A DNA stretch of 64,000 nucleotides from Noviherbaspirillum sedimenti (GTDB taxonomy: Bacteria > Pseudomonadota > Gammaproteobacteria > Burkholderiales > Burkholderiaceae_D): contig NZ_QYUQ01000002.1 in NCBI RefSeq assembly GCF_003590835.1, positions 2,294,001-2,358,000 on the forward strand, given 5' to 3'. The translations under genes were made by a program, and so were the position numbers. This document shows, one piece after another, positions 18,661 to 29,996 of the stretch. Every line of letters starts with the position of its first letter. The stretch's first letter is position 1. The notes beneath the pieces were generated by a model that did no database searches, was not told where the DNA came from, and worked only from the letters and a program-made list of their open reading frames with translations.

Positions 18661-21521
18661 ACACGGCGGGCGGAGCGCTGCTCCCCCGCAAGACCAATCA
18701 CACCTATACTGAGCAATATGACAAGCTACCCGCTGCCGTCCGAGACGATCCACGCTACCGCGACGCCGCCCCGGCCCTACGGGACGTGGACACCGCGCGC
18801 GCCTTACGTCGTGCGCTGGCGGCCTTCGAGCAAGCCACCTACCCCGGCGAAACAGCCACCACCTACGCCCTCGACGACGACGGCAATGTAGTCGTGCTGC
18901 GCGACGGCCTGGCCGCCGCACAGGCCGCCGAAGCCTTTGCCGCCGAGCATGACCTGGGCATCATCGTGCGCCATTCGGCCGGCGGCACCCTGGAAGACTA
19001 CATCGACGCCGGCTTCACCCCAGAAATCAGCCTGGGCTACTACACCGGCCTGGGCGGCTACACTGGCGTCGGCGGCTTAAACACCATCGTTGCCAGCAAG
19101 CACCTGCGCGGCATCCCGCTGTTTTCCATCGGCGACGACGATGGTCTGCTGGCACGCGGCGCGGCCGCCGCCACCGGCGGAAAGCTTGGCCTCGGCGCCC
19201 GCCTGGCCCATTACCGAGGCATCGGCCTGCAAATGCTAGGGCGGCGCCAGCTGGTCGACTACTTCGGCCCGCTGTTCCAGACCAGCCCCGGCCAGACCGA
19301 CCTGATGGAGCAATACAGCAACCTGGTCATGCGCATGGACGCCGACAAGAACGCCGCCGGCGCCGCCGCCGATGCCCTGGCCGACCGCTGGGGCAAGCTG
19401 CCAGACGCGGGTAAACTGGCCGAACTGATGCACGACGCCACCCGCTACGAAATCGACCCCGACAAGCCGATGCCGCCGGGCGTCATCCCGGCCCTGTACC
19501 GGGGCTTGAAGACCCGCTTCGAGGCCCTTTCGCACGCCGCCCAGACGCTCTACCGCGAGGCCCGCGCCGCCTACGAGACGCATTACCAGGCGGTCAAGGA
19601 CGCCGTGCGCGAGCGCATCCTGCGCGCGCTGCCGGACCATCCGCACCGTGCGCAATTGCTGGCCCGCATGGACAGCGAATTCTTCGGCCGCGTCAAGGGC
19701 GTGTATTTCCCGCTGGCCCGCTTCGGCGATTACCTGGTGCGCGTATCGGACGACAACGGCCACCATGGCGAAGCGGTGCATTTCGCCGAAACCCTGGCCG
19801 AGGCCGAGGCGCTGCGCGCCAAGCTGCTTGCGCAGTACCCGGCCAATCGCGGCTACGTGGTCAGCAAGGTGACGCGCCGCGCCAAATTCAACGCCGCGCG
19901 CGACATGGTCGGACGCGGCTTCTTGAAGGAACTGTTCGGCGTGCTCGGCCAGTCCGGCGTCGGCCCCGAGCTGCAGGACGCCATCAACCAGCTCTACCTG
20001 ACCAGCCTGCCCGACCTGTCCTGGGCCAAGCACGGCATCCACCGCAAGGGCACGCCGGGCTTTTCGCAGGACGCCCGCCGCGCCTTCGCCCACAACATGT
20101 TCCACGGCGCGCGCTACCTGGCCAAGCTGCGCTACGCCGACCAGTTGAGCGAACGCCTGGACGACATGCAGGAACACGCCGATGCCAACGCCCAAGTCGA
20201 GGATTACGACCAGGTCGCCGCGCAGCAGGTCATCGACGAAATGCACAAGCGCCATGACGCCTACCTCAACCCCAACAGCCACCCGCTGGCGACCGCGCTG
20301 ACCTCGGCCGGCTTCCTGTTCTATCTCGGCCTGTCGCCGGCCTCGGCGGCGGTCAACCTGACGCAGGTGCCGCTGGTGGCCCTGCCGATCCTGGGCGGCA
20401 AGTACGGCTTCGGCCGCGCAGCAGCCGCGCTGCTGACGGCGGCCAGCAGTGTGGCCAAGAGCAAGAACAGCCTCGCCGAAATGTTGGCCGGCGACGAGCT
20501 GGCCATGATCCAGCAAGCCATCAAGGACGGCGCCGTGGACGTGTCGATGGCGCATGACCTGGCCGGCATCGCCCAGGGCGAAGACCACAAGCTGTGGGGC
20601 AAGCTGCGCCCGGTCATGAAGATCGCCTCGTTCATGTTCCATCACGCCGAGCGCTTCAACCGCCAGGCCGCCCTGCTGGCGGCCTACCGTCTGGCGCGCC
20701 AGGGCGGCGCCGACCACGCCGGCACCTATGCCCGCGCGGTCGAGGACGTGTATGCGTCGCAGTTCGATTACAGCGCCGGCAATCGCCCGCGCATCATGCA
20801 GGGCAACGTCGCCCGCGTGCTGCTGCTGTTCAAGCAGTATGCGCAAAACATGATCTTCACGCTGGGACACAATGCGCAACTGGCCGTGCGCGGCGACCGC
20901 CAGGCCGCCAAGACCTTCGCCGGCCTCCTGGTCACGCATGCGCTGGCCGCCGGCGCCCTCGGCCTGCCGGTGGTGGGGCCGCTCCTGGCCCTGGCGTCGC
21001 TGTTGGGCCACGACGATGACGAGCCGTGGGATGCCGAAGTGGCCCTGCGCAACCTGCTGGCCGAGACCTTCGGCGACAAGACCGCCGAAGTCATGGTGCA
21101 TGGTCTCAGCCGCCTGACGCCGTGGGATATTTCCGGGCGCGTGGGCCTGGACCGCCTGCTGCTGCCGGACGTGCAGGAAGGGCTGGAAGGCCAGCACCTG
21201 GCCGAGTCGTGGCTGGCCGCCGCGCTGGGGCCGGTGGCGGGTCCTTGGCGCAGATCAGTAGCCGGTGCCGTATTCCTGCTCCGCCTGGTCAGACGGCGGG
21301 CAGGCGACGTTGGCCATGCTTCTGTTCCAGGGTCACGCGCTGCGCCATGTTCGATTCAACAGCCATGCGGGCCGCAGCGGGCTTCCCAGCGCGCTTATGG
21401 GCCTTCGGTGTGGCATCGGCGGGCGGCTGTTGCGCCGGCGCCGCCACGGCGTCCTGCTGCGGCTTCACGATGGCCAGGATGGTCGCCCGCGCCACGTCGA
21501 ACTGCCGCGCCAGTGCGCTGA
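18633..21521 (+). CDS. PLxRFG-domain phage-type protein, truncated at both ends
   Basis: An open frame of 962 codons, of which about 870 are recognisable. It contains the eponymous PLARFGDYLVRVSD (around residue 358), long Ala-rich helices, a Gly-rich hydrophobic segment (SAGFLFYLGLSPASAAVNLT) and NMFHGARYLAKLRYAD. PLxRFG proteins are very long (often over 2000 residues) virion-associated or prophage proteins, so the N-terminal majority is missing. Homology-like sequence stops near 21245 (ALGPVAGPW); the rest of the frame reads Arg/Pro-rich shadow sequence of the opposite-strand resolvase. It has no ribosome-binding site and is best seen as a decayed prophage fragment. Confidence 0.7.
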   Translation: MGADGTSSIDTAGGALLPRKTNHTYTEQYDKLPAAVRDDPRYRDAAPALRDVDTARALRRALAAFEQATYPGETATTYALDDDGNVVVLRDGLAAAQAAEAFAAEHDLGIIVRHSAGGTLEDYIDAGFTPEISLGYYTGLGGYTGVGGLNTIVASKHLRGIPLFSIGDDDGLLARGAAAATGGKLGLGARLAHYRGIGLQMLGRRQLVDYFGPLFQTSPGQTDLMEQYSNLVMRMDADKNAAGAAADALADRWGKLPDAGKLAELMHDATRYEIDPDKPMPPGVIPALYRGLKTRFEALSHAAQTLYREARAAYETHYQAVKDAVRERILRALPDHPHRAQLLARMDSEFFGRVKGVYFPLARFGDYLVRVSDDNGHHGEAVHFAETLAEAEALRAKLLAQYPANRGYVVSKVTRRAKFNAARDMVGRGFLKELFGVLGQSGVGPELQDAINQLYLTSLPDLSWAKHGIHRKGTPGFSQDARRAFAHNMFHGARYLAKLRYADQLSERLDDMQEHADANAQVEDYDQVAAQQVIDEMHKRHDAYLNPNSHPLATALTSAGFLFYLGLSPASAAVNLTQVPLVALPILGGKYGFGRAAAALLTAASSVAKSKNSLAEMLAGDELAMIQQAIKDGAVDVSMAHDLAGIAQGEDHKLWGKLRPVMKIASFMFHHAERFNRQAALLAAYRLARQGGADHAGTYARAVEDVYASQFDYSAGNRPRIMQGNVARVLLLFKQYAQNMIFTLGHNAQLAVRGDRQAAKTFAGLLVTHALAAGALGLPVVGPLLALASLLGHDDDEPWDAEVALRNLLAETFGDKTAEVMVHGLSRLTPWDISGRVGLDRLLLPDVQEGLEGQHLAESWLAAALGPVAGPWRRSVAGAVFLLRLVRRRAGDVGHASVPGSRAAPCSIQQPCGPQRASQRAYGPSVWHRRAAVAPAPPRRPAAASRWPGWSPAPRRTAAPVR

Positions 21522-22023
21522 TGGACGTGCCCTTGCCGTGCGCCTGGATGATGCTGGCGCGCTGCTCCGACGTGGTCTTGGCCGGCCGGCCGAGCACCTT
21601 CCCTTCGGCCTTGGCGCGCTCTAGGCCAGCTTGGGTACGCTCGATCAGCAGGTCGCGCTCCATCTCGGCCACGGCCCCGAGCATCGCCATCATCAGCTTG
21701 CCGGCAGCGGATGCCAGGTCGAGCTGGCCGAGTTGCAGCACGATGACCTTGATCTTGCGCTTGGCCAGCGCCTTGACCGTCGCGGTGACATCCATGGCAT
21801 CACGCCCGAGCCGGTCGAGCCGGCTGACGATCAATGTCTCGCCATCGCGGATTTTATCCAACATCGCTTTGAACTGCGGTCGTTGCGCCGCCGGGATCGC
21901 GCCGCTGATGCCTTCGTCGGCAAACCAGTAATCGACCTGGTAGCCGGCGCGTTCGATCTCAAGCCGCTGGTTCTGGACGGTCTGCCCGGTAGAGCTGACC
22001 CTGGTGTATGCGAATGTCGCCAT
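21289..22023 (-). CDS. Serine recombinase (resolvase/invertase family)
   Basis: A 244-residue small serine recombinase. The catalytic Ser10 is in YTRVSSTGQ; LIVSRLDRLGRD and the VIVLQLG strand follow; the E-helix region EMERDLLIERTQAGLERAKAEGK leads to LGRPAKT and a C-terminal helix-turn-helix (SISALARQFDVARATI). The tail (about 190-244) is Ala/Pro/Lys-rich and longer than usual. Enzymes of this type resolve Tn3-like cointegrates or invert DNA. It lies at the edge of the phage remnant; no transposase partner is present. A possible recombination site is upstream at 22040-22150. Confidence 0.9.
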   Translation of the reverse strand: MATFAYTRVSSTGQTVQNQRLEIERAGYQVDYWFADEGISGAIPAAQRPQFKAMLDKIRDGETLIVSRLDRLGRDAMDVTATVKALAKRKIKVIVLQLGQLDLASAAGKLMMAMLGAVAEMERDLLIERTQAGLERAKAEGKVLGRPAKTTSEQRASIIQAHGKGTSISALARQFDVARATILAIVKPQQDAVAAPAQQPPADATPKAHKRAGKPAAARMAVESNMAQRVTLEQKHGQRRLPAV

Positions 22024-22039
22024 ATGATGTTCCCGACGT

Positions 22040-22150
22040 GTTGGAAAGGTAGCTGGAGAATATCCAACATGCCGGAAAGTCGAAAGCCTACTTTTTCAAC
22101 AGTCTGATCGGCATCAATCCGACCCTGTTGGCAAACGGTCGGTTTCCAAC
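22040..22150. other. Possible res/recombination site upstream of the resolvase
   Basis: The region upstream of the recombinase start has several GTTGG/CCAAC half-sites: GTTGGAAA (22040-22047), ATCCAAC (22062-22068), TGTTGGCAAAC (22128-22138) and TTTCCAAC (22143-22150). GTTGGAAA and TTTCCAAC form a perfect inverted pair. Resolvases bind such arrays beside their own gene. Confidence 0.3.
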
Positions 22151-22227
22151 GGGCCAATAAATAGTTATTCCGGCATGCAATGGTTAATATCCTCCGCGTC
22201 ATCTCCCAATTCTGCATGTCGAGAAGT

Positions 22228-22290
22228 TTTACACTGAGCAGGCGCGCTTCTCGTAACTCATTGATTTATCAAGGTGGTATTAAACTTGCT
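22228..22290 (+). promoter_or_regulatory. Sigma-54 promoter (22275-22290) and possible activator site of PEP-CTERM gene 2
   Basis: TGGTATTAAACTTGCT at 22275-22290 has the sigma-54 GG (22276-22277) and GC (22288-22289) exactly 10 nt apart, as in the promoter at 7781. The predicted start is near 22301, 30 nt before the ATG. TTTACACTG at 22228-22236 resembles the site at 7712. It lies within a CGAAGAAG-like dyad: CGAGAAG at 22220-22226 and CTTCTCG at 22247-22253. Confidence 0.7.
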
Positions 22291-22330
22291 ATTACTAATT
22301 TCCCAAACTTATGAAAAAGGAGAGAACTTT

Positions 22331-23071
22331 ATGAAAGCAATAAAGCGATTTGTTCACATCATGAGAGGCTGGAGGCTAAACGTCTTTACCGTTGTAGCTG
22401 CGCTGTTTGTATCAATGAGCGCGCAAGCAGCCGTCATTACAGTGCAAGGAACCAACTCCTTCGGACCTGTAAATTGCATCCCATTCGGCTGTCCCGCTTT
22501 CTATGATCCTCATATGGGCTTCATTTATAAGAATCTTCCTGCATTTACTCTTAATCCGGGAGATATTCTGGCCTACGACTTAGGTCAGGCAAACGATTTG
22601 CCTTTATCTTTTACCATCTCCTTAGCAGCAACAACAAACAACGGCGGCACAATTGCAGCAAGCCCTTTCACTACAATTGCTACCAATTCAACGCCGGCAG
22701 TGCCAACGGGCGATAACATCCCATACAACTATGAATTGGCTTTTACCATCACCAATAGTTTTAATTTTTCAGGGGGAGGACTAATTGTTGATTTTCTGCC
22801 TACTGGACTTTCAACTACGGATGCTACCGGGGACCAAGTATTGATGGTTTCAAATGGTAACGATCCATCTGGGTTCTTCGTTCAGCGTTACTATTTTGGA
22901 GCCTTTGCAGGCGACACAAGTAGCGGGGATACGTCTCATATTGGAAACTTCCGTATCATTACCAATGATGTTCATCAGGTCCCAGAGCCAGCATCTCTTG
23001 CCCTGCTCAGTGTTGGTCTGTTCGGCTTTATCGCATCCCGTCGCAAGTCGGAGAAAAGTAAGAACGTCTAA
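22331..23071 (+). CDS. PEP-CTERM sorting-domain exported protein 2
   Basis: A 246-residue exported protein. The start at 22331 follows AAAGGAGAGAA. Residues 1-34 are a long signal peptide (RLNVFTVVAALFVSMSAQA). The body is rich in Asn, Thr, Gly and aromatic residues, compatible with an all-beta extracellular fold. The sorting tail is intact: VPEPASLALLSVGLFGFIASRRK plus a short basic end, given here as VPEPASLAL, a hydrophobic helix and ASRRKSEKSK. It should be processed by an exosortase, not encoded in this window. A sigma-54 promoter precedes it and a strong terminator follows. Confidence 0.9.
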   Translation: MKAIKRFVHIMRGWRLNVFTVVAALFVSMSAQAAVITVQGTNSFGPVNCIPFGCPAFYDPHMGFIYKNLPAFTLNPGDILAYDLGQANDLPLSFTISLAATTNNGGTIAASPFTTIATNSTPAVPTGDNIPYNYELAFTITNSFNFSGGGLIVDFLPTGLSTTDATGDQVLMVSNGNDPSGFFVQRYYFGAFAGDTSSGDTSHIGNFRIITNDVHQVPEPASLALLSVGLFGFIASRRKSEKSKNV

Positions 23072-23092
23072 ACCAACATAGCCATGGCAGCG

Positions 23093-23117
23093 AAGCCCGC
23101 CGAGTGCGGGCTTTTTT
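23093..23117 (+). terminator. Rho-independent terminator after PEP-CTERM gene 2
   Basis: GCCCGC (23095-23100), loop CGAGT, GCGGGC (23106-23111), extended by AA/TT pairs and followed by six T residues. Confidence 0.88.
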
Positions 23118-23189
23118 GTTTTTAAGCCGTCGTTTTCTGGCGGGAATGCGAATGCGCAATCAGGGGTCGGCTCAAAGCTGAGCTGCAAT

Positions 23190-23308
23190 TGAAAAGCCCT
23201 CCGCAGAAGGGAGGGCTTGGTATTTGGTGCCGGTATTATTGCCGACCGCCAGCTCCGGTGGATGCAACCTATTCTTTTGAAAACTTTGTCTCACTCCAAA
23301 AGTTGCAT
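23190..23308 (-). ncRNA. Candidate FNR-controlled small RNA
   Basis: On the minus strand a perfect FNR box (23362-23375) is followed by a -10-like TATAGT (23321-23316), giving a start near 23307-23309 and placing the box at about -60 to -61.5, the class I position. About 115 nt later a hairpin AAGCCCTCC-CTTCTGC-GGAGGGCTT with a T-rich end (23218-23190) would terminate it. No reading frame of useful size fits inside. The RNA would have an internal stem ATGCAAC/GTTGCAT (7 bp, enclosing about 33 nt) and a CCTCCC stretch in the terminator stem/loop region. It is convergent with PEP-CTERM gene 2. No homology search was possible. Confidence 0.45.
23194..23218 (-). terminator. Hairpin terminator of the candidate small RNA
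   Basis: A perfect 9-bp stem AAGCCCTCC/GGAGGGCTT with a 7-nt loop; on the minus strand it is followed by TTCAATT. There is no T-run on the plus strand, so it works best for minus-strand transcription. Confidence 0.6.
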
Positions 23309-23315
23309 GGGCGGA

Positions 23316-23375
23316 ACTATACAAGACATTTCGTCACCCAGTGTTCCTTGCATTTGAGATATTGATTTGTATCAA
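23316..23375 (-). promoter_or_regulatory. Perfect FNR box with downstream -10 element
   Basis: TTGATTTGTATCAA at 23362-23375 matches the FNR/Anr consensus at all ten defined positions. The minus-strand -10 TATAGT (23321-23316) matches the sigma-70 consensus at 5 of 6. No protein-coding gene starts downstream on either strand within 250 bp. Confidence 0.65.
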
Positions 23376-23682
23376 GTGCGCTTGACGGTGCGGGTGGTCG
23401 GCGCGGTCGCTCCACGCCGACCATTCGGCAACGGTTTCGGGCGGCCTGTACGAATTCGTCTGTTTTCCGGCCCGTCAATGCAATGCTTAAAAATTCGGCA
23501 TAAGTTACACACAAATTCTGTGCGCAACTCGGTGGATATCTCATAGGAAATATTGGTAAGGTACTGATTCATATCAGAAATGTTGCGCTGCTCAAAAACC
23601 GATATGGAAATCTATTCACAGACCTTTCCATTGTGTAATCTACAGGAAACGCCTACGGTCCATGCACAGGTAATGCACAGGG
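23376..23682. other. Non-coding stretch between the FNR box and the umuC remnant
   Basis: About 300 bp, increasingly AT-rich towards the right. No convincing gene or hairpin was found on either strand. It may be what remains of the upstream region of a gene lost when the umuC fragment was joined. Confidence 0.35.
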
Positions 23683-24345
23683 TTGCGCGCGGCGTCGCCC
23701 AAGTGGTTGCGGGCGCAGTTCGGCGTGATGATGGAACGCACCGGAAATGAGTTGCGTGGCATTTCCTGCCTGGCGCTGGAAGATGCCGTGCCGCCCAAAC
23801 AGCAAATCGTTACCTCGCGCTCCTTCGGCCAGATGGTGCTTGTGCTCGATGAACTCAATGAGGCGGTAGCGACCTACATGACGCGCGCTGCCGAAAAGCT
23901 GCGGCATCAGCATGCCGTGTGCGGCGCCGTCTACGTCTTTATCCATACCAACCAGTTCCGGCCGCAGGACAGGCAGTACGGCAACGGCGTGGTGATGCCG
24001 CTTGCAGAGGCGACCAGTGATACCCGATGGCTGACGGCCGCCGCGCTGGCGGGTTTGAAGCGCATCTATCGGCCAGGCTATGCCTACAAGAAGGCTGGCG
24101 TCATGCTGCTTGAGCTGTCGCCGGCAGGCATAAGGCAGGCGTCGCTGTTCGACCCGGAGGGGAAGGGCGCTGTCCAGTCGGCCGCCGTGATGCGGGCCGT
24201 CGATACCCTGAATCGGGCGTATGGGCGAAATACCGTGATGGTGGGGGCGGCCGGCATGCAGCGGCGCTGGAGCATGAGGTCGGAAAACAGGAGTCCCCGG
24301 TTTACGACGCGGTGGGAGGAGATGCCGGTGGCGCTGGCGAGGTGA
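23683..24345 (+). pseudogene. umuC: umuC fragment (C-terminal half of DNA polymerase V subunit)
   Basis: About 220 codons matching the C-terminal half of UmuC: ASPKWLRAQFGVMMERTGNE, LALEDAVPPKQQIVTSRSFG (little-finger start), TRAAEKLRHQ, and the end SPRFTTRWEEMPVA, plus the KKAGVMLLELSPAG segment. The whole N-terminal palm with the catalytic Asp/Glu residues is missing; an in-frame TAA lies just upstream at 23671-23673. No start signal exists, so it cannot make an active polymerase. It is a remnant, probably from a plasmid- or phage-borne umuDC or rulAB operon; no umuD is nearby. Confidence 0.8.
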
Positions 24346-24389
24346 CCGGCATGTGTAGCTTGTCTTTGACTTCCGAGGAGAGGCCACCC

Positions 24390-24488
24390 TCAGGCGGTTG
24401 CTTTCGGCTGCTTGGACAGGAAGACCACTTTCGCGCCGGCCTGCGCCGCCACCAACTGCTCGCTCCACCAGTACCACTGTGGTGTCAG
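24390..24488 (-). pseudogene. Unidentified C-terminal coding fragment
   Basis: On the minus strand about 33 codons read as a sensible protein end (QWYWWSEQLVAAQAGAKVVF, then LSKQPKATA and TGA). It has good codon usage, but the frame has no start and I do not recognise the family. It is probably debris next to the umuC remnant. Confidence 0.25.
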
Positions 24489-24611
24489 ATGTTGCTAATT
24501 GCTCATTATCAAAATATTGCTTCGATGGTAATGCAACAATGTTAAGACACTTGGCTTTCTTGATTCAATGAGGCGCGGACCCCAATTGCCGGAAGTTGAT
24601 GAAAAATAAAA

Positions 24612-24722
24612 ATGACAGCACAGATTCCTGACACTTGTACTTTTGAGGGGCGAAAGTGGACGCTCGATGAGTGGGATGGACCAACTCAATGCGTGCCTAC
24701 CGACGAGCTCCAACAAGCATAA
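24612..24722 (+). CDS. Possible 36-residue protein or N-terminal gene remnant
   Basis: ATG 24612 to TAA 24720-24722. The start (MTAQIPDTCTFEGRKWTLDE) resembles the beginning of longer proteins of unknown function found in genomic islands, so this may be a gene cut short. Only a weak purine-rich stretch precedes it. Confidence 0.3.
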   Translation: MTAQIPDTCTFEGRKWTLDEWDGPTQCVPTDELQQA

Positions 24723-24794
24723 AGTGTAGTCAGTTTTTTCAGATGAGGGGATGGATGCCCCGGGAGTATCGAGTAATTTTTCGCCTGTAGAAAG

Positions 24795-25424
24795 ATGGTG
24801 AATATGACGAACAAAATTGAAGACGTGCCTCGCTTATTGCGATTGCCTGGAGCGATAGCTCTTCGTCGCCAGATGCTTGGGGAAGCTCACATTGCTCCAT
24901 TAACGCAGTATGTAGAGAGCTTGAGAGCAAAGCATCCGACGTGGGAATTTCAGGACTTTGACCCGATGGATGGCGGGGTAGAAGCGGACATGCTGTTTCT
25001 GATGGAAAAGCCCGGCCCCATGACTTCGCCCACTGGCAAGAAGCAAGGATCTGGCTTCATCTCGCGTAACAACGATGATCCAACGGCTGAAGCGACATTC
25101 AACTTCATGGTTGCGGCCGGTATTCCCAGAAAGCGGGTGGTGCTATGGAACGTGATACCAGGCTGGAACGGAACCATCAGCATGACGGTTGCCGAGTGCC
25201 GCTCTGGTGTGGAAGAGTTGAACGACCTGTTGCTGTTGCTGCCAAAAATCAAGACCGTGGTTCTGGTGGGTGGTAAGGCCGGACGTGCTCAAAAGCTTCT
25301 GGAAGGCATGAACCTGAGAATCTTCACGTCAGCCCATCCCTCTCCCAAGGTGCGCTCCATCAAACGGGCAATGTGGGACTTGATACCCAGGCAATGGGAA
25401 GAGGCGTATAAGTGTTGTCGCTGA
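24795..25424 (+). CDS. Uracil-DNA glycosylase-superfamily protein
   Basis: A 209-residue protein with the UDG-fold pattern: ADMLFLMEKPGP in the place of the water-activating motif 1, SRNNDDPTAEATFNF, RVVLWNVIPGWNG, the strand KTVVLVGGKAG, and motif 2 TSAHPSPKVRS with the conserved HPS. The usual motif 1 Asp/Asn is not obvious, so it may act on a different base or only bind DNA. No iron-sulfur cysteines are apparent. It is convergent with hsdR and close to the RM locus, a context suggesting a role in defence or DNA modification. The family is moderately sure; the substrate is unknown. Confidence 0.6.
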   Translation: MVNMTNKIEDVPRLLRLPGAIALRRQMLGEAHIAPLTQYVESLRAKHPTWEFQDFDPMDGGVEADMLFLMEKPGPMTSPTGKKQGSGFISRNNDDPTAEATFNFMVAAGIPRKRVVLWNVIPGWNGTISMTVAECRSGVEELNDLLLLLPKIKTVVLVGGKAGRAQKLLEGMNLRIFTSAHPSPKVRSIKRAMWDLIPRQWEEAYKCCR

Positions 25425-25435
25425 CGCGATTTTGA

Positions 25436-25533
25436 CCCAGGCTGCCGATTTTGACTGCCCAACTTCAAAAATTCCATAGCAGTCAATCGGGTGCCATGCA
25501 TGTGAGTGGGCCAACGAATTTCGGCAGCCTGGG
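25436..25533. repeat. Inverted-repeat pair, possible miniature element
   Basis: CCCAGGCTGCCGA (25436-25448) and TCGGCAGCCTGGG (25521-25533) are perfect 13-bp inverted repeats enclosing about 72 bp between the convergent UDG-like and hsdR genes. A TTTTGAC occurs on both sides of the left copy. It could be a small non-autonomous element, an IS remnant, or a transcription terminator pair. Confidence 0.45.
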
Positions 25534-25610
25534 GACGAACTCGGAATTTCGCCATCTGACACACCCTGTCGGATAAAGTTACGACTTATACAGGAAAGTG
25601 CTGGTCGCGG

Positions 25611-28600
25611 TCACGCCCACTCCGCACTGAGCGTCTCCGCCTGCGCCAGCACCAGTTGCACTGCCTCTTCCCGCTTCACCGGCGGGTACTTGTACTTGCG
25701 CAGGATGCGCTTGACCATCAGCCGCAATTTCGCCCGCACGCTTTCCCGCACGGACCAATCCACACTGACATTCTGGCGCAAGCTTTCCGCCAGTTCATGG
25801 GCGATCTTTTTAAGTGTCTCGTCGCCCAACTCCCGCACAGAGTCCTCATTGTTGGCCAGTGCATCATAAAAGGCCAATTCATCGGAATTCAAGCCCAAGT
25901 CCGCGCCCCGGTCAGCCGCCTCCTGGAATTTCTTGGCCATCTCGATTAATTCCTCGATCACCTGCGCGGTTTCAATCGAGCGGTTCTGATACCGCTTGAT
26001 GACGTTGGCAAGCAACTCCGAGAATTTATTGTTCTGCACCAGGTTGCTGGCGAAGCGGCTCTTGATTTCCCCTTCCAGCAGCCGCTCCAGCAATTCCACG
26101 GCAAGATTTCTCTCCGGCAGATTGCGCACTTCGTTCAGGAAATCGTCATCGAGAATCCCGATGTTTGGCTTGTCCAGCCCCGCTGCACCGAAAATATCGA
26201 CCACTTCGGTGGACACCACTGCCGAGTCGATGATCTGGCGAACCGCCAGCTCCCGTTCCTCGTCGGCCAGTTTTTTGGCGCTGATATCTTTTTTGGTCAG
26301 CAGCACCTTCACCGCCTGGAAAAACGCCACTTCTTCCCGTGCTGCCTTGGCCTCATCCAGCGTGCAGCACAGCGTGAATGCCTTGGACATGGCCAAGGCG
26401 GTGTCAGCAAAGCGCTTCTTGCCATCCTGGACGCCGAGGACATGATTGGCGGCCTTGGCCAGCAAGCCGTGCCCGCCAGTCAGGAAACCGCTATAGTCAA
26501 AACTATGCAACATGGCGCGCAACACGTCCAACTTTTCTTCCATGACCGCATACGCCTCATGCGCATCGACAGTCGGCCGGCCACGCCCGTTGCTGGCGGT
26601 ATATTCCTTGAGGGCCTGCTTCAGGTCGTTGGCAATGCCGATGTAATCGACCACCAAGCCGCCCTGCTTGTCGCGGAACACGCGGTTTACGCGCGCAATC
26701 GCCTGCATCAGGTTATGGCCCTTCATCGGCTTGTCCACGTACAGCGTATGCACGCAGGGCGCGTCAAAGCCGGTCAACCACATGTCCCTCACGATCACCA
26801 GCTTTAATGCATCTGCGGGGTCTTTAAACCGCTTTTCCAGCCGTTTCTTGACCTGTTTGGAGTATATGTGCGGGCGTAGCAGTGCCTTGTCGCTGGCCGA
26901 GCCGGTCATGACGATCTTAATTGCGCCCTTTTCGGGATCAGCGTCATGCCAGTCGGGCCACAAGGCGACGAGGGCATCGTACAAGTGCACGCAGATCTCG
27001 CGGCTCATCGCCACGACCATCGCCTTGCCGTTTTGCGCCTTGTTGCGCTCCTCGAAGTGCGCGACAAGATCTGCGGCCACTTGATGGACGCGCGGCGCGG
27101 CACCCACAACCTTTTCCAGAGCTGCCCATCTGCTTTTCAGCTTGGCCTGTTCGTCGCCTTCCTCGTCTTCAGCCAACTCATCGACCTCGGCATCGATAGT
27201 CGATAGCTCATCCTCCTTCAAGCCGAGCTTGGCCAGGCGCGATTCATAGTAAATCGCCACCGTCGCGCCATCATCGCGCGCTTGCTGCATGTCGTAGACG
27301 TGGATGTAGTCGCCGAACACGGCCCGCGTGTCGCGGTCTTCGCTGGAAACCGGAGTGCCGGTAAAGGCGACGAAAGTCGCGTTGGGCAGCGCGTCGCGCA
27401 GATGCTGCGCATAGCCGACCTGGTAGCCCTTGGCATCACCTTTGAATTTCGCCTCGAAGCCATACTGCGTGCGGTGCGCTTCATCAGCGATGACGACGAT
27501 ATTGCTGCGGTCGGAAAGTACCGGGAATGTATCTTCATCCTCGCCAGGCATGAACTTCTGGATGGTGGCAAAAACGATACCACCCGATGGCCGGTTGGCC
27601 AGCTTGGCGCGCAAGTCTTGGCGAGTCTCACCCTGCACCGGCTGCTCACGCAACAAATCCTGCGATAGCGAAAACACGCCGAACAGTTGGCCATCGAGGT
27701 CATTGCGGTCGGTGATGACGACGATGGTTGGGTTTTCCATCGCCGATTCGCGCATCACGCGGGCGGCAAAGCAGGTCATCGTGATGCTCTTGCCAGATCC
27801 CTGTGTATGCCACACCACGCCGCCCTTGTGATTGCCATCCGGGCGCGACGCCGCCACGACCTGATTGATCGCTGACCGCACTGCATGGAACTGGTGATAG
27901 CCGGCGACCTTCTTGACCAGCGTGCCGTCATCCTCGAACAGCACAAAGAAACGCAGGAAATCCAGCAGATAGGCCGGGGCCAGCACGCCACGCACCAGGG
28001 TTTCCAGCTCGTTAAATTGCCCCAGCGGGTCAAGCGTGATGCCGTCAATCGTGCGCCAGGCCATGTAACGCTCGGCAGTGGCCGACAACGCCCCCATGCG
28101 CGCCTCGGTGCCATCCGAAATCACCAGTACCTCGTTGTACTGGAACACATCCGGGATTTGTTCCTTGTAGGTTTCAATCTGGTCAAAGGCTTTCCAGATA
28201 TCGGCATTTTGGTCGGCGGGGTTCTTCAGCTCCAGCAGAACCAACGGAAAACCATTGATGAACAGGATGATGTCGGGGCGGCGGGTATATTTGGCGCCCT
28301 TGATCGAGAACTGATTGATCGCCAGCCATTCGTTGGCAGTGACATCGGCAAAGTCGATCAGGCGCACGAAGTCGCCGCGTGTCTCCCCGTCTTTTTGGTA
28401 TTCCACCGGTACGCCATTGACCAGCATGCGGTGGAAGTTGCGGTTGGCTGGCAGCAGCGCGGGCGTGTCAAGATTGAGCACCTGCCGCAGCGCATCCTCG
28501 CGCGCGGCCGCCGGCACCGAAGGATTCAAGCGGGCGATGGCGTCGCGCAGGCGGCCGGCAAGGATGACTTCGCGGTAGTGGGCGCGTTCCGGGCTATCAC

Positions 28601-28691
28601 CGTCGGGCGCGATATCGGGGCCGTACAAGGGCGTGTAACCAGTATCGGCCAGCCAGCCGAGGGTTTCCAGTTCGAGTTGGTCTTCAGTCAT
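25611..28691 (-). CDS. hsdR: Type I restriction enzyme, R (motor/nuclease) subunit
   Basis: A 1026-residue HsdR. The N-terminal PD-(D/E)xK nuclease shows RPDIILF (138-144) and VLLELKNP (151-158). The SF2 translocase has Walker A HTQGSGKSIT (295-304), DEAH in VVIADEAHRTQ (403-406), FTGTP and later helicase motifs (DMWLTGFDAP, IARVNR). The C-terminus is the usual helical region that contacts HsdM. It cuts unmethylated DNA after ATP-driven translocation. The ATG at 28691 (MTEDQLELET) is chosen over an upstream start in the repeat. It is separated from hsdM-hsdS by fic copy 2 on the opposite strand, so it needs its own promoter in the 113-bp gap at 28692-28804. Confidence 0.95.
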   Translation of the reverse strand: MTEDQLELETLGWLADTGYTPLYGPDIAPDGDSPERAHYREVILAGRLRDAIARLNPSVPAAAREDALRQVLNLDTPALLPANRNFHRMLVNGVPVEYQKDGETRGDFVRLIDFADVTANEWLAINQFSIKGAKYTRRPDIILFINGFPLVLLELKNPADQNADIWKAFDQIETYKEQIPDVFQYNEVLVISDGTEARMGALSATAERYMAWRTIDGITLDPLGQFNELETLVRGVLAPAYLLDFLRFFVLFEDDGTLVKKVAGYHQFHAVRSAINQVVAASRPDGNHKGGVVWHTQGSGKSITMTCFAARVMRESAMENPTIVVITDRNDLDGQLFGVFSLSQDLLREQPVQGETRQDLRAKLANRPSGGIVFATIQKFMPGEDEDTFPVLSDRSNIVVIADEAHRTQYGFEAKFKGDAKGYQVGYAQHLRDALPNATFVAFTGTPVSSEDRDTRAVFGDYIHVYDMQQARDDGATVAIYYESRLAKLGLKEDELSTIDAEVDELAEDEEGDEQAKLKSRWAALEKVVGAAPRVHQVAADLVAHFEERNKAQNGKAMVVAMSREICVHLYDALVALWPDWHDADPEKGAIKIVMTGSASDKALLRPHIYSKQVKKRLEKRFKDPADALKLVIVRDMWLTGFDAPCVHTLYVDKPMKGHNLMQAIARVNRVFRDKQGGLVVDYIGIANDLKQALKEYTASNGRGRPTVDAHEAYAVMEEKLDVLRAMLHSFDYSGFLTGGHGLLAKAANHVLGVQDGKKRFADTALAMSKAFTLCCTLDEAKAAREEVAFFQAVKVLLTKKDISAKKLADEERELAVRQIIDSAVVSTEVVDIFGAAGLDKPNIGILDDDFLNEVRNLPERNLAVELLERLLEGEIKSRFASNLVQNNKFSELLANVIKRYQNRSIETAQVIEELIEMAKKFQEAADRGADLGLNSDELAFYDALANNEDSVRELGDETLKKIAHELAESLRQNVSVDWSVRESVRAKLRLMVKRILRKYKYPPVKREEAVQLVLAQAETLSAEWA

Positions 28692-28693
28692 TA

Positions 28694-29996
28694 TCGGTAT
28701 CATTCTTGCAAGCAATAACAATACCATAATGCAGCTTAAAAATTTTCTTCCTTGTTGAGCCGAATATGCTATCTTTTCAGCTCAAATATTGAGCCGTAAA
28801 TGACATGAATTCGCCTCATTCAGCAAAATACATCTGGCAACAGCCAGGCTGGCCAGCGCTACGCTATGACCTGGCGACACTCGCGCCGGAACTGGGTGCG
28901 GCCCGACGAGCGCAAGGCAGCGTGCTTGGCCGGGCAGAAGCCATCGGGCTGGAGCAACTGGCCAGCATCACGAATGCCATCTGGGTCGACGAGGTGATTG
29001 CCACGGCGGCGATTGAAGGCGAAGCCCTGAACCTGGATGCCGTTCGTTCGTCCGTGGCCCGTAAACTCGGCTTGGGCGAAGGCGGCCCGGTCGCCAGAAA
29101 TGTGGACGGTCTGGTGGATGTGATGCATGACGCCGGCAGCGCATTTGCCGACAGGCTGGATGCCGACCGGCTTTGCCGCTGGCATTCTGCGCTCTTCCCC
29201 GGCGGCACTTCCGGCATTCGGCGCATCGAGGTGGGCCGCTACCGTTCGTTTTCCGACCCGATGCAAATCATTAGCGGCCGCCCCGGCAAGGAAGTCATTC
29301 ACTATGAAGCGCCGCCATCGGCACGTGTGGCCGCTGAAATGGACGCCTTTATCGACTGGTTCAATTCATCAGCCACTGCCGGCGAAGATGGCCTCATCCG
29401 CGCCGCCCTGGCGCATTTGTGGTTCGAGACCATCCATCCTTTCGAGGATGGCAATGGCAGAATCGGCCGCGCCATCGTCGATCTGGCGCTGGCGCAGGAT
29501 CTGGGCGCCGCCACGCGCCTTTACAGCATGTCGCGCCAGCTTCGGGAAAACCGGCGCGCATATTACGATGCGCTCAACCAGGCTCAGTCCGGCGCACTGG
29601 ACGTCACCGGCTGGGTGGCCTGGTTCGCCCACCAGTTTGCCGAGGCCTGCGAAAAATCCGGCCAGATCATCCAGGCGGCCCTTGCCAAGCAGCGGTTCTG
29701 GGCACAGCATGCCGGCGTGCCGCTCAACGAGCGGCAGCGCAAAGCAATACAGAAGCTGCTCGATGTCGGCGACAGCGGTTTTCAGGGCGGGCTGAGCGCG
29801 GAAAAATATGGCGCAATCACTGGAGCGTCAAAGGCGACCGCGACGCGCGATCTGACGGCGCTGGCGGAACACGGCCTGCTGTTTGTCAGCGGACAGGGGC
29901 GAAGTACGCGGTATGCGTTGAAGAGGGATTAAGCCGCGATAAACGTGTGCCCCACCCTGGAAAATTACGGCAATCGAAATCCGCCTCCCCCTCGCG
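28694..29996 (+). repeat. Direct repeat copy 2 (1303 bp) carrying fic
   Basis: Ungapped match to 8483-9785. Differences are few and clustered: an uninterrupted identical block of about 380 bp (about 28903-29282 in this copy) is flanked by more diverged segments, a sign of gene conversion. Confidence 0.95.
28805..29932 (+). CDS. fic: Fic-family protein, copy 2 (within the type I RM locus)
   Basis: A 375-residue Fic protein nearly identical to the copy at 8594: catalytic HPFEDGNGRIGR at 211-222, class II inhibitory TAAIEG at 67-72, and a C-terminal winged-helix-like region. It lies head-to-head with hsdR (113-bp gap) and tail-to-tail with hsdS (167-bp gap). fic genes are often found inside type I RM loci, which suggests this is the ancestral position. 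Its role there (toxin, modifier of RM subunits, or guard against loss of the locus) is not known. Confidence 0.92.
   Translation: MNSPHSAKYIWQQPGWPALRYDLATLAPELGAARRAQGSVLGRAEAIGLEQLASITNAIWVDEVIATAAIEGEALNLDAVRSSVARKLGLGEGGPVARNVDGLVDVMHDAGSAFADRLDADRLCRWHSALFPGGTSGIRRIEVGRYRSFSDPMQIISGRPGKEVIHYEAPPSARVAAEMDAFIDWFNSSATAGEDGLIRAALAHLWFETIHPFEDGNGRIGRAIVDLALAQDLGAATRLYSMSRQLRENRRAYYDALNQAQSGALDVTGWVAWFAHQFAEACEKSGQIIQAALAKQRFWAQHAGVPLNERQRKAIQKLLDVGDSGFQGGLSAEKYGAITGASKATATRDLTALAEHGLLFVSGQGRSTRYALKRD

Follow-up and report, generated by a model that had tools for sequence, protein, structure and literature searches.

A predicted FNR-controlled small RNA of Noviherbaspirillum sedimenti and its family of core hairpins in Oxalobacteraceae

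A 41-nt RNA hairpin that recurs through the Oxalobacteraceae forms the core of a predicted small RNA gene at 23309-23190, on the minus strand of the window, the whole 64,000-nucleotide stretch of Noviherbaspirillum sedimenti DNA that was analysed. The family to which this RNA belongs, with its variable 5' hairpin, its linker and its conserved core, is very probably real, judging from comparative sequence analysis; it is new to Rfam and has been found so far only in Oxalobacteraceae in the samples searched. We read the window copy as a stand-alone small RNA whose core would bind a conserved partner, the RNA acting as an oxygen-responsive decoy, and we give this reading as a whole a probability of about 0.48.

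The initial annotation had proposed an FNR-controlled small RNA and had named a lack of conservation of the box and the hairpin in relatives as one finding that would speak against it. Both are conserved. In fact, the structure covaries and six related copies keep the box at one offset amid diverged DNA, so the proposal survives and gains support from its relatives. What the comparison adds is that the conserved part is a core common to the whole family, that most copies in the pattern set stand behind a Pho-type repeat rather than an FNR box, and that phages have the core as well.

A candidate small RNA gene behind an FNR-type box

The elements of the locus are the following.

23362-23375, minus strand: FNR-type box TTGATACAAATCAA, zero mismatches; six Noviherbaspirillum relatives have an FNR-type box at one offset
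23316-23321, minus strand: -10 element TATAGT, read off the sequence; -10-like hexamers stand at the same place in relatives, by eye
23190-23309, minus strand: predicted small RNA of about 115-120 nt, from promoter and terminator anatomy and fold
23262-23308, minus strand: 5' stem-loop SL1, arms 23308-23300 and 23270-23262, supported by covariation
23293-23289 (UGAGA) and 23282-23278 (UUUCA), minus strand: SL1 inner stem
23221-23261, minus strand: conserved core, 41 nt, from covariance model R1 and covariation
Parts of the core, minus strand: CCACC linker, then the hairpin 23256-23226 with stem GGAGCUGG / CCGGCACC and a 15-nt loop
23190-23218, minus strand: intrinsic terminator hairpin and short U tail, from the sequence; a shorter form appears in the terminator scan
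23092-23114, plus strand: terminator-like hairpin of the convergent PEP-CTERM gene, a locus boundary outside the RNA
22274-23071: PEP-CTERM gene, convergent, beyond the RNA's terminator
23683-24345, plus strand: UmuC fragment, covering positions 209-421 only of the 422-position UmuC model

A perfect FNR box, a -10 element with five of six letters at class I spacing and a 9-bp terminator hairpin with a T-rich end had all been claimed for this locus, and all are there. The box is the sole zero-mismatch one among the 31 matches with at most two mismatches in the 64-kb window, where 18.6 were expected, and its centre lies 59.5 or 60.5 bp upstream of a start at 23309 or 23308, near the class I position. 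Downstream of it, TATAGT (23321-23316) has no -35 hexamer, the best candidate at spacers of 15-19 nt having 2 of 6 letters, and a sigma-70 promoter scan of 20000-28000 listed nothing at the small RNA locus; together these fit an activator-dependent promoter. The terminator reads AAGCCCTCC-CTTCTGC-GGAGGGCTT and then TTCA (23218-23190), with 9 bp paired over 23218-23194 and a short T tail. Since the terminator scan of 20000-28000 found 9 terminator-like sites versus 8.8 in shuffles, a hairpin like this one could, by itself, be due to chance. Folding of the predicted 120 nt gives -40.9 kcal/mol (z -2.84), a value that 1 of 200 shuffles equalled.

The accessory mosaic in which the gene had been placed is equally apparent: 21289-29932 holds a serine recombinase, the PEP-CTERM gene, the UmuC remnant, HsdR, a Fic-domain gene and a weak match to uracil-DNA-glycosylase. 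Because of these surroundings, and because the core is found in one of the five listed genomes of the genus (the other four give no match), the small RNA locus looks acquired. The UmuC fragment that adjoins the small RNA lacks its N-terminal half.

A family of RNAs with one core hairpin

The core follows the consensus C-Y-A-C-C, GG-N-GCYGG, a 15-nt loop and CCRGC-A-CC-A. In the window copy the stem has one A.A mismatch and one U.G pair, and the loop is CGGUCGGCAAUAAUA. The initial annotation had suggested a check for covariation, and this was run on two alignments. For the core, alignment A5 comprises 66 matches (54 distinct) from 64 loci picked for diversity, divergent and phage copies included. 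Over its 54 distinct rows, 3 of 7 pairs have changed on both sides: U-A and C-G alternate in many rows, while C-G to U-A and G-C to A-U occur in one row each. Core cells are paired in 99.5% of cases, as against at most 58.5% when the two strands are slid. At the mismatch, A, C or G stands opposite A; a U, with which that A could pair, occurs in 0 of 54 distinct rows. In the loop, 7 of the 15 columns have one letter in at least 93% of rows, the rest varying. Two points weigh against the structure claim, namely that two of the three double changes come from single rows and that A5 is fitted to the model. For SL1, alignment A2 takes in 15 of 21 sequences, all long-form and the window included; one degraded copy was omitted and five copies of a second subclass were aligned apart (A3), their pairs uncounted. 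Here both sides have changed at 4 of the 8 outer and 1 of the 5 inner pairs.

Upstream of the core, the family changes its dress from copy to copy. Of 111 distinct copies (those left among the matches listed after removing repeats and short flanks), 65 have a helix no more than 5 nt away on the 5' side; the rate in mononucleotide shuffles is 18%, and 30 of 115 control segments have such a helix. The helices that abut the core have many different sequences. In three phage copies (L265, L266 and L259) we noticed by eye long complementary arms, CCAACA... and ...TGTTGG, 5' of the core and differing in sequence; an exact-helix search bears out a long helix for L265 and L266, and the helix that it finds in L259 is weaker and not the same one. 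A possible pseudoknot, in which the ACC preceding the stem would pair with a GGU of the loop, has a compensating C-G in two phage rows, and 11 of 54 rows are unpaired there. Among single copies, L224 (1501-1606) has two tandem cores, the second diverged, and L237 (1501-1589) has an altered core stem at 32.7 bits, its upstream region unlike that genome's other promoters by eye.

The BLAST search across Oxalobacteraceae that had also been suggested gave matches to the window stretch in 118 of 294 genomes, in most of them covering just a short segment towards the 3' end. With the covariance model R1, built on the 41-nt core, the family extends to 193 of 371 Oxalobacteraceae genomes and 24 of 40 genera, with a maximum of five matches per genome. 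In its own genome the window copy scores 57 bits and the next match 21 bits, which leaves one real copy. A pattern scan of public genomes returned at least 120 stretches, of which 119 are titled with Oxalobacteraceae genera or the family itself, if Telluria group genera are counted as Oxalobacteraceae, as we assume (the other genera were checked in part), and one, L139, is titled Burkholderiaceae bacterium. In 399 genomes of the order, R1 matches above 28 bits are found in Oxalobacteraceae only. Ten matches from outside the family, at 23.7-27.2 bits, were taken as chance-level; the best of them, L164, looks by eye like coding sequence. In 369 genomes of the class, matches at E <= 1e-4 were the window's own. 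The larger of these searches used Infernal's stricter filters, with which weak matches are lost. Plasmids searched with the window stretch gave 15 matches, each 29-31 bases long and at E 0.6, of which 10 fall in nhaB, and phage records searched with a prophage copy (L227:1440-1560) gave a single match at E 4.

No named relative had been recognised at the outset, and Rfam offers none: at the gathering score, Rfam 15 finds tRNA only in the whole window and no match for this RNA, and relaxed thresholds bring the best E in the window to 0.13 and in the phage copy L265 to 0.58. The relative L142 reaches E 2.3e-6 below gathering, with 28.6 of 50 bits, on its terminator, and a few of its matching spans reach over the core. 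At gathering, 18 relatives yield tmRNA and RF02278, both away from the core; the latter is the Betaproteobacteria toxic small RNA, found in L008 (2599-2661, minus strand) at 50.3 bits (gathering 50), with an FNR-type copy at a distance of about 1 kb. Among the titles and abstract openings of the openly licensed papers listed we recognised no description of this RNA, and by eye the core was not seen among the northern oligos in the excerpted part of PMC7011215.

Two kinds of promoter for sister copies

What drives these RNAs? For a first view of their promoters we used 124 copies that, among the matches listed, fit one pattern exactly in L001-L150, with duplicates removed and 20 nt of flank or more required; this way of choosing them itself accounts for part of their invariance. 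Within this set the repeat GTCA-N7-GT(C/A)A lies upstream of 79 of 124 copies, and the looser GT(C/A)A-N7-GT(C/A)A upstream of 84 of 124, or 79 of the 114 with full flanks. Its orientation is nearly fixed: in those 114 copies it is upstream on the same strand 79 times and in the other three positions 1, 1 and 0 times. Such a tandem 11-bp repeat before a -10 is, we presume, the Pho box motif. We read it so because the looser form precedes 15 of 16 pstS-family genes in nine Oxalobacteraceae genomes (16 of 18 matches were used and two weak ones dropped), and because the distance from repeat to -10-like hexamer is equal at pstS-family genes and core copies in the cases counted by hand. The window copy has no Pho-type repeat.

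FNR-type boxes are rarer. In the same set, among the matches listed, they lie upstream of 15 of 124 copies and overlap the Pho-type repeat in 7 of these 15; with full flanks required (114 copies), 15 boxes are upstream and 2 downstream. In L012, L016, L022, L028, L058, L059 and L125 it is the FNR-type sequence TTGATNCATGTCAA that overlaps the repeat, which may mean dual control or coincidence. Five same-spaced Noviherbaspirillum copies are invariant at 9 of 10 box columns, at 0 of 4 spacer columns, at 0 of 40 upstream columns and at 6 of 33 columns between box and -10; a sixth copy has a perfect FNR-type box at the same offset, the six coming from three genomes. The window box lies 6 nt farther out than these, at nearly the place where L217 and L221 have boxes of 9 and 8 of 10 letters, respectively. 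An FNR-type box is present in 7 of 22 distinct Noviherbaspirillum contexts and a Pho-type repeat in 3, and the remaining 12 have neither. The long-form copies L219 and L220 have, upstream of SL1, the palindrome GTTACTCAATGTAAC instead of an FNR or Pho box. Taken together, the comparison makes FNR-type control of the window copy probable.

Both kinds of promoter can occur on sister copies of one genome: Massilia sp. Root351 has one copy with an FNR-type box (L142) and one with a Pho-type repeat (L057), and Pseudoduganella aquatica likewise (L054 and L086). In L142 and L054, from these other genera, the FNR-type box stands by eye 21 nt before a -10-like hexamer, at about -41. At the other end of the RNA, a terminator-like hairpin occurs within 90 nt downstream of only 32 of 123 copies (123 of the 124, among the matches listed) versus 10 of 123 shuffles, so many copies have no obvious end.

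The protein that would act at the FNR-type box has several candidates. The genome has 11 HTH_Crp_2 matches, 8 of them above the cut-off. The FNR-type ExxSR motif is present in three proteins, L203, L204 and L209; the first two lack a cysteine cluster, and L209 has CNNCGGDC near its start. Of the two scanned against the NCBIfam Fnr model (cut-off 228 bits), L203 scores 152.1 and L209 65.4, both below; the best matches of both among solved structures are FNR entries. The protein at the box may also be a relative of FNR with no oxygen-sensing ability, and oxygen sensing there is presumed. By eye, Crp/Fnr-type-looking frames, one BLAST cluster, also lie near the core in L024, L034, L047, L061 and L079, on differing sides.

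A decoy for a conserved partner?

To explain these features, we propose that an FNR/Anr-type protein switches the small RNA on from its site near -60, at an activator-dependent promoter, and that transcription would end at the intrinsic terminator. From the conserved site we infer activation under low oxygen. The core would be the effector, and some conserved partner, most probably a protein, would recognise it, because its stem strands are nearly fixed save for paired exchanges, its mismatch never pairs and about half of its loop varies. Separate copies of the core are found behind Pho-type or FNR-type promoters, and some copies, in phage as in host DNA, lie shortly ahead of a start codon; the stress-induced decoy RNAs would compete with these leader copies for the partner. 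Taken by itself, this titration step is tentative.

The main rival to the decoy reading is a base-pairing small RNA, in which the core loop or SL1 would pair with mRNAs, with the help of Hfq or ProQ, and reprogramme low-oxygen metabolism as FnrS does. An FNR-type promoter, a terminator and a length of about 115 nt are the usual anatomy of such RNAs, and SL1 has conserved unpaired motifs. The rival stays alive because the core loop is partly conserved, about half of it; the 7 near-invariant loop columns, which count against a protein partner, are possible for a base-pairing RNA too. What it accounts for less well is the invariance of both core stem strands and the fixed mismatch, which target pairing does not need, and the recurrence of the core with many different 5' hairpins and at leader positions. 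All told, base pairing is a serious contender that we would still regard as rather less than an even bet.

Those leader positions could instead mean that the core is a cis-regulatory leader element, a riboswitch or protein operator, of which the stand-alone copies would be attenuated leaders. A frame of 63-65 aa follows the core in three phage or prophage sequences, at distances of 21, 27 and 29 nt; its versions in L227 and L236 match nothing in Pfam or PHROG. Core and small frame are flanked in L227 by an upstream DUF2303 gene and a downstream DUF3310 gene, and in L236 the core has the U-A double change. In cellular genomes, a LuxR-type gene (L047) follows the core after 26 nt and a DUF2252 gene (L068) after 35 nt. 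Longer gaps separate it from a transketolase frame in several loci of Collimonas (130-138 nt in L043 and L094) and from a galU-like frame in three loci of Undibacterium (114-449 nt); downstream frames in these two genera were checked with Pfam in L143 and L122. These positions suit a leader element, but its downstream genes are of no fixed class. In a crude ORF comparison of the 124 loci, among the matches listed, no cluster of downstream genes exceeds 13, and the window copy ends in a terminator, past which a convergent gene lies. A leader element is improbable as an account of this RNA. A general linkage of core and small phage gene was considered and rejected: in 25 loci, a subset of the matches to this gene, the core is just upstream in 2, both already known, and about 1.3 kb away in one.

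A DNA element, such as an operator or the end of a mobile element, would explain the inverted-repeat form, but it is very improbable given a nearly fixed orientation to promoter boxes, a 15-nt loop partly conserved on one strand and a covarying 5' hairpin beside the core. Equally far-fetched is a small protein gene, the absence of a credible frame having been claimed from the start and borne out: stops interrupt two of the three forward frames, while frame 0, open along the whole transcript, lacks an ATG and continues through the terminator. A five-codon frame from the second base of the transcript (AUG CAA CUU UUG GAG UGA) is, by eye, disrupted in L005 and L221, and the second subclass does not have it.

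Relation to known small RNAs

How would a decoy of this kind compare with known RNAs? CsrB is a decoy RNA of the same kind as RsmY, RsmZ and CrcZ, and decoys of the CsrA type have GGA motifs in hairpin loops; GlmY and GlmZ are sibling RNAs that share a protein-binding stem, bound by RapZ. The window RNA would share its decoy logic, here a proposal, with RsmY/RsmZ and CrcZ. Unlike them, its family usually has one core hairpin per copy, with no GGA in the core loop: in the window this CsrA-type motif is absent from the core loop, and the single GGA of SL1 sits in an internal loop. By description only, the family is like GlmY/GlmZ, sibling RNAs with a common stem, protein binding being proposed in our case. 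In the excerpts of PMC5703892, CrcZ and the Rsm RNAs sequester proteins, whereas PhrS of Pseudomonas aeruginosa, which depends on the FNR homologue ANR, base-pairs with its target. The window RNA is like PhrS in being a small RNA with FNR-type control, predicted here, the sequence comparison consisting of Rfam scans only.

FnrS of enterobacteria and Neisseria (the Neisseria RNA being, we assume, the one also named AniS) is likewise a short FNR-controlled RNA with a terminator, and the window RNA resembles it, its own control being predicted. It differs in having no Rfam match at gathering and in a core common to Pho-type copies. According to excerpts of PMC3032703, the gonococcal FnrS RNA is 108 nt long with a predicted class II site, and the FNR site of E. 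coli fnrS is at -41.5, unlike the window site near -60. Going by these partial accounts, the nearest RNAs in regulation are gonococcal FnrS and ANR-dependent PhrS.

A hairpin shared by stress regulons and phages?

The core family is a covariation-supported, family-wide candidate for Rfam, and its conserved hairpin provides an experimental handle, with low phosphate and low oxygen as the likely inducing conditions. In Oxalobacteraceae, which are mostly soil bacteria, this portable hairpin could be the recognition element of a post-transcriptional system, in which an RNA-binding factor acts on host and prophage leaders and is titrated by sibling decoys under phosphate-starvation or low-oxygen control. 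We regard this wider picture as speculative and rather unlikely in full. If true, one effector RNA would have been moved between stress regulators by promoter exchange, even among sister copies, and phages would be carrying their host's hairpin.
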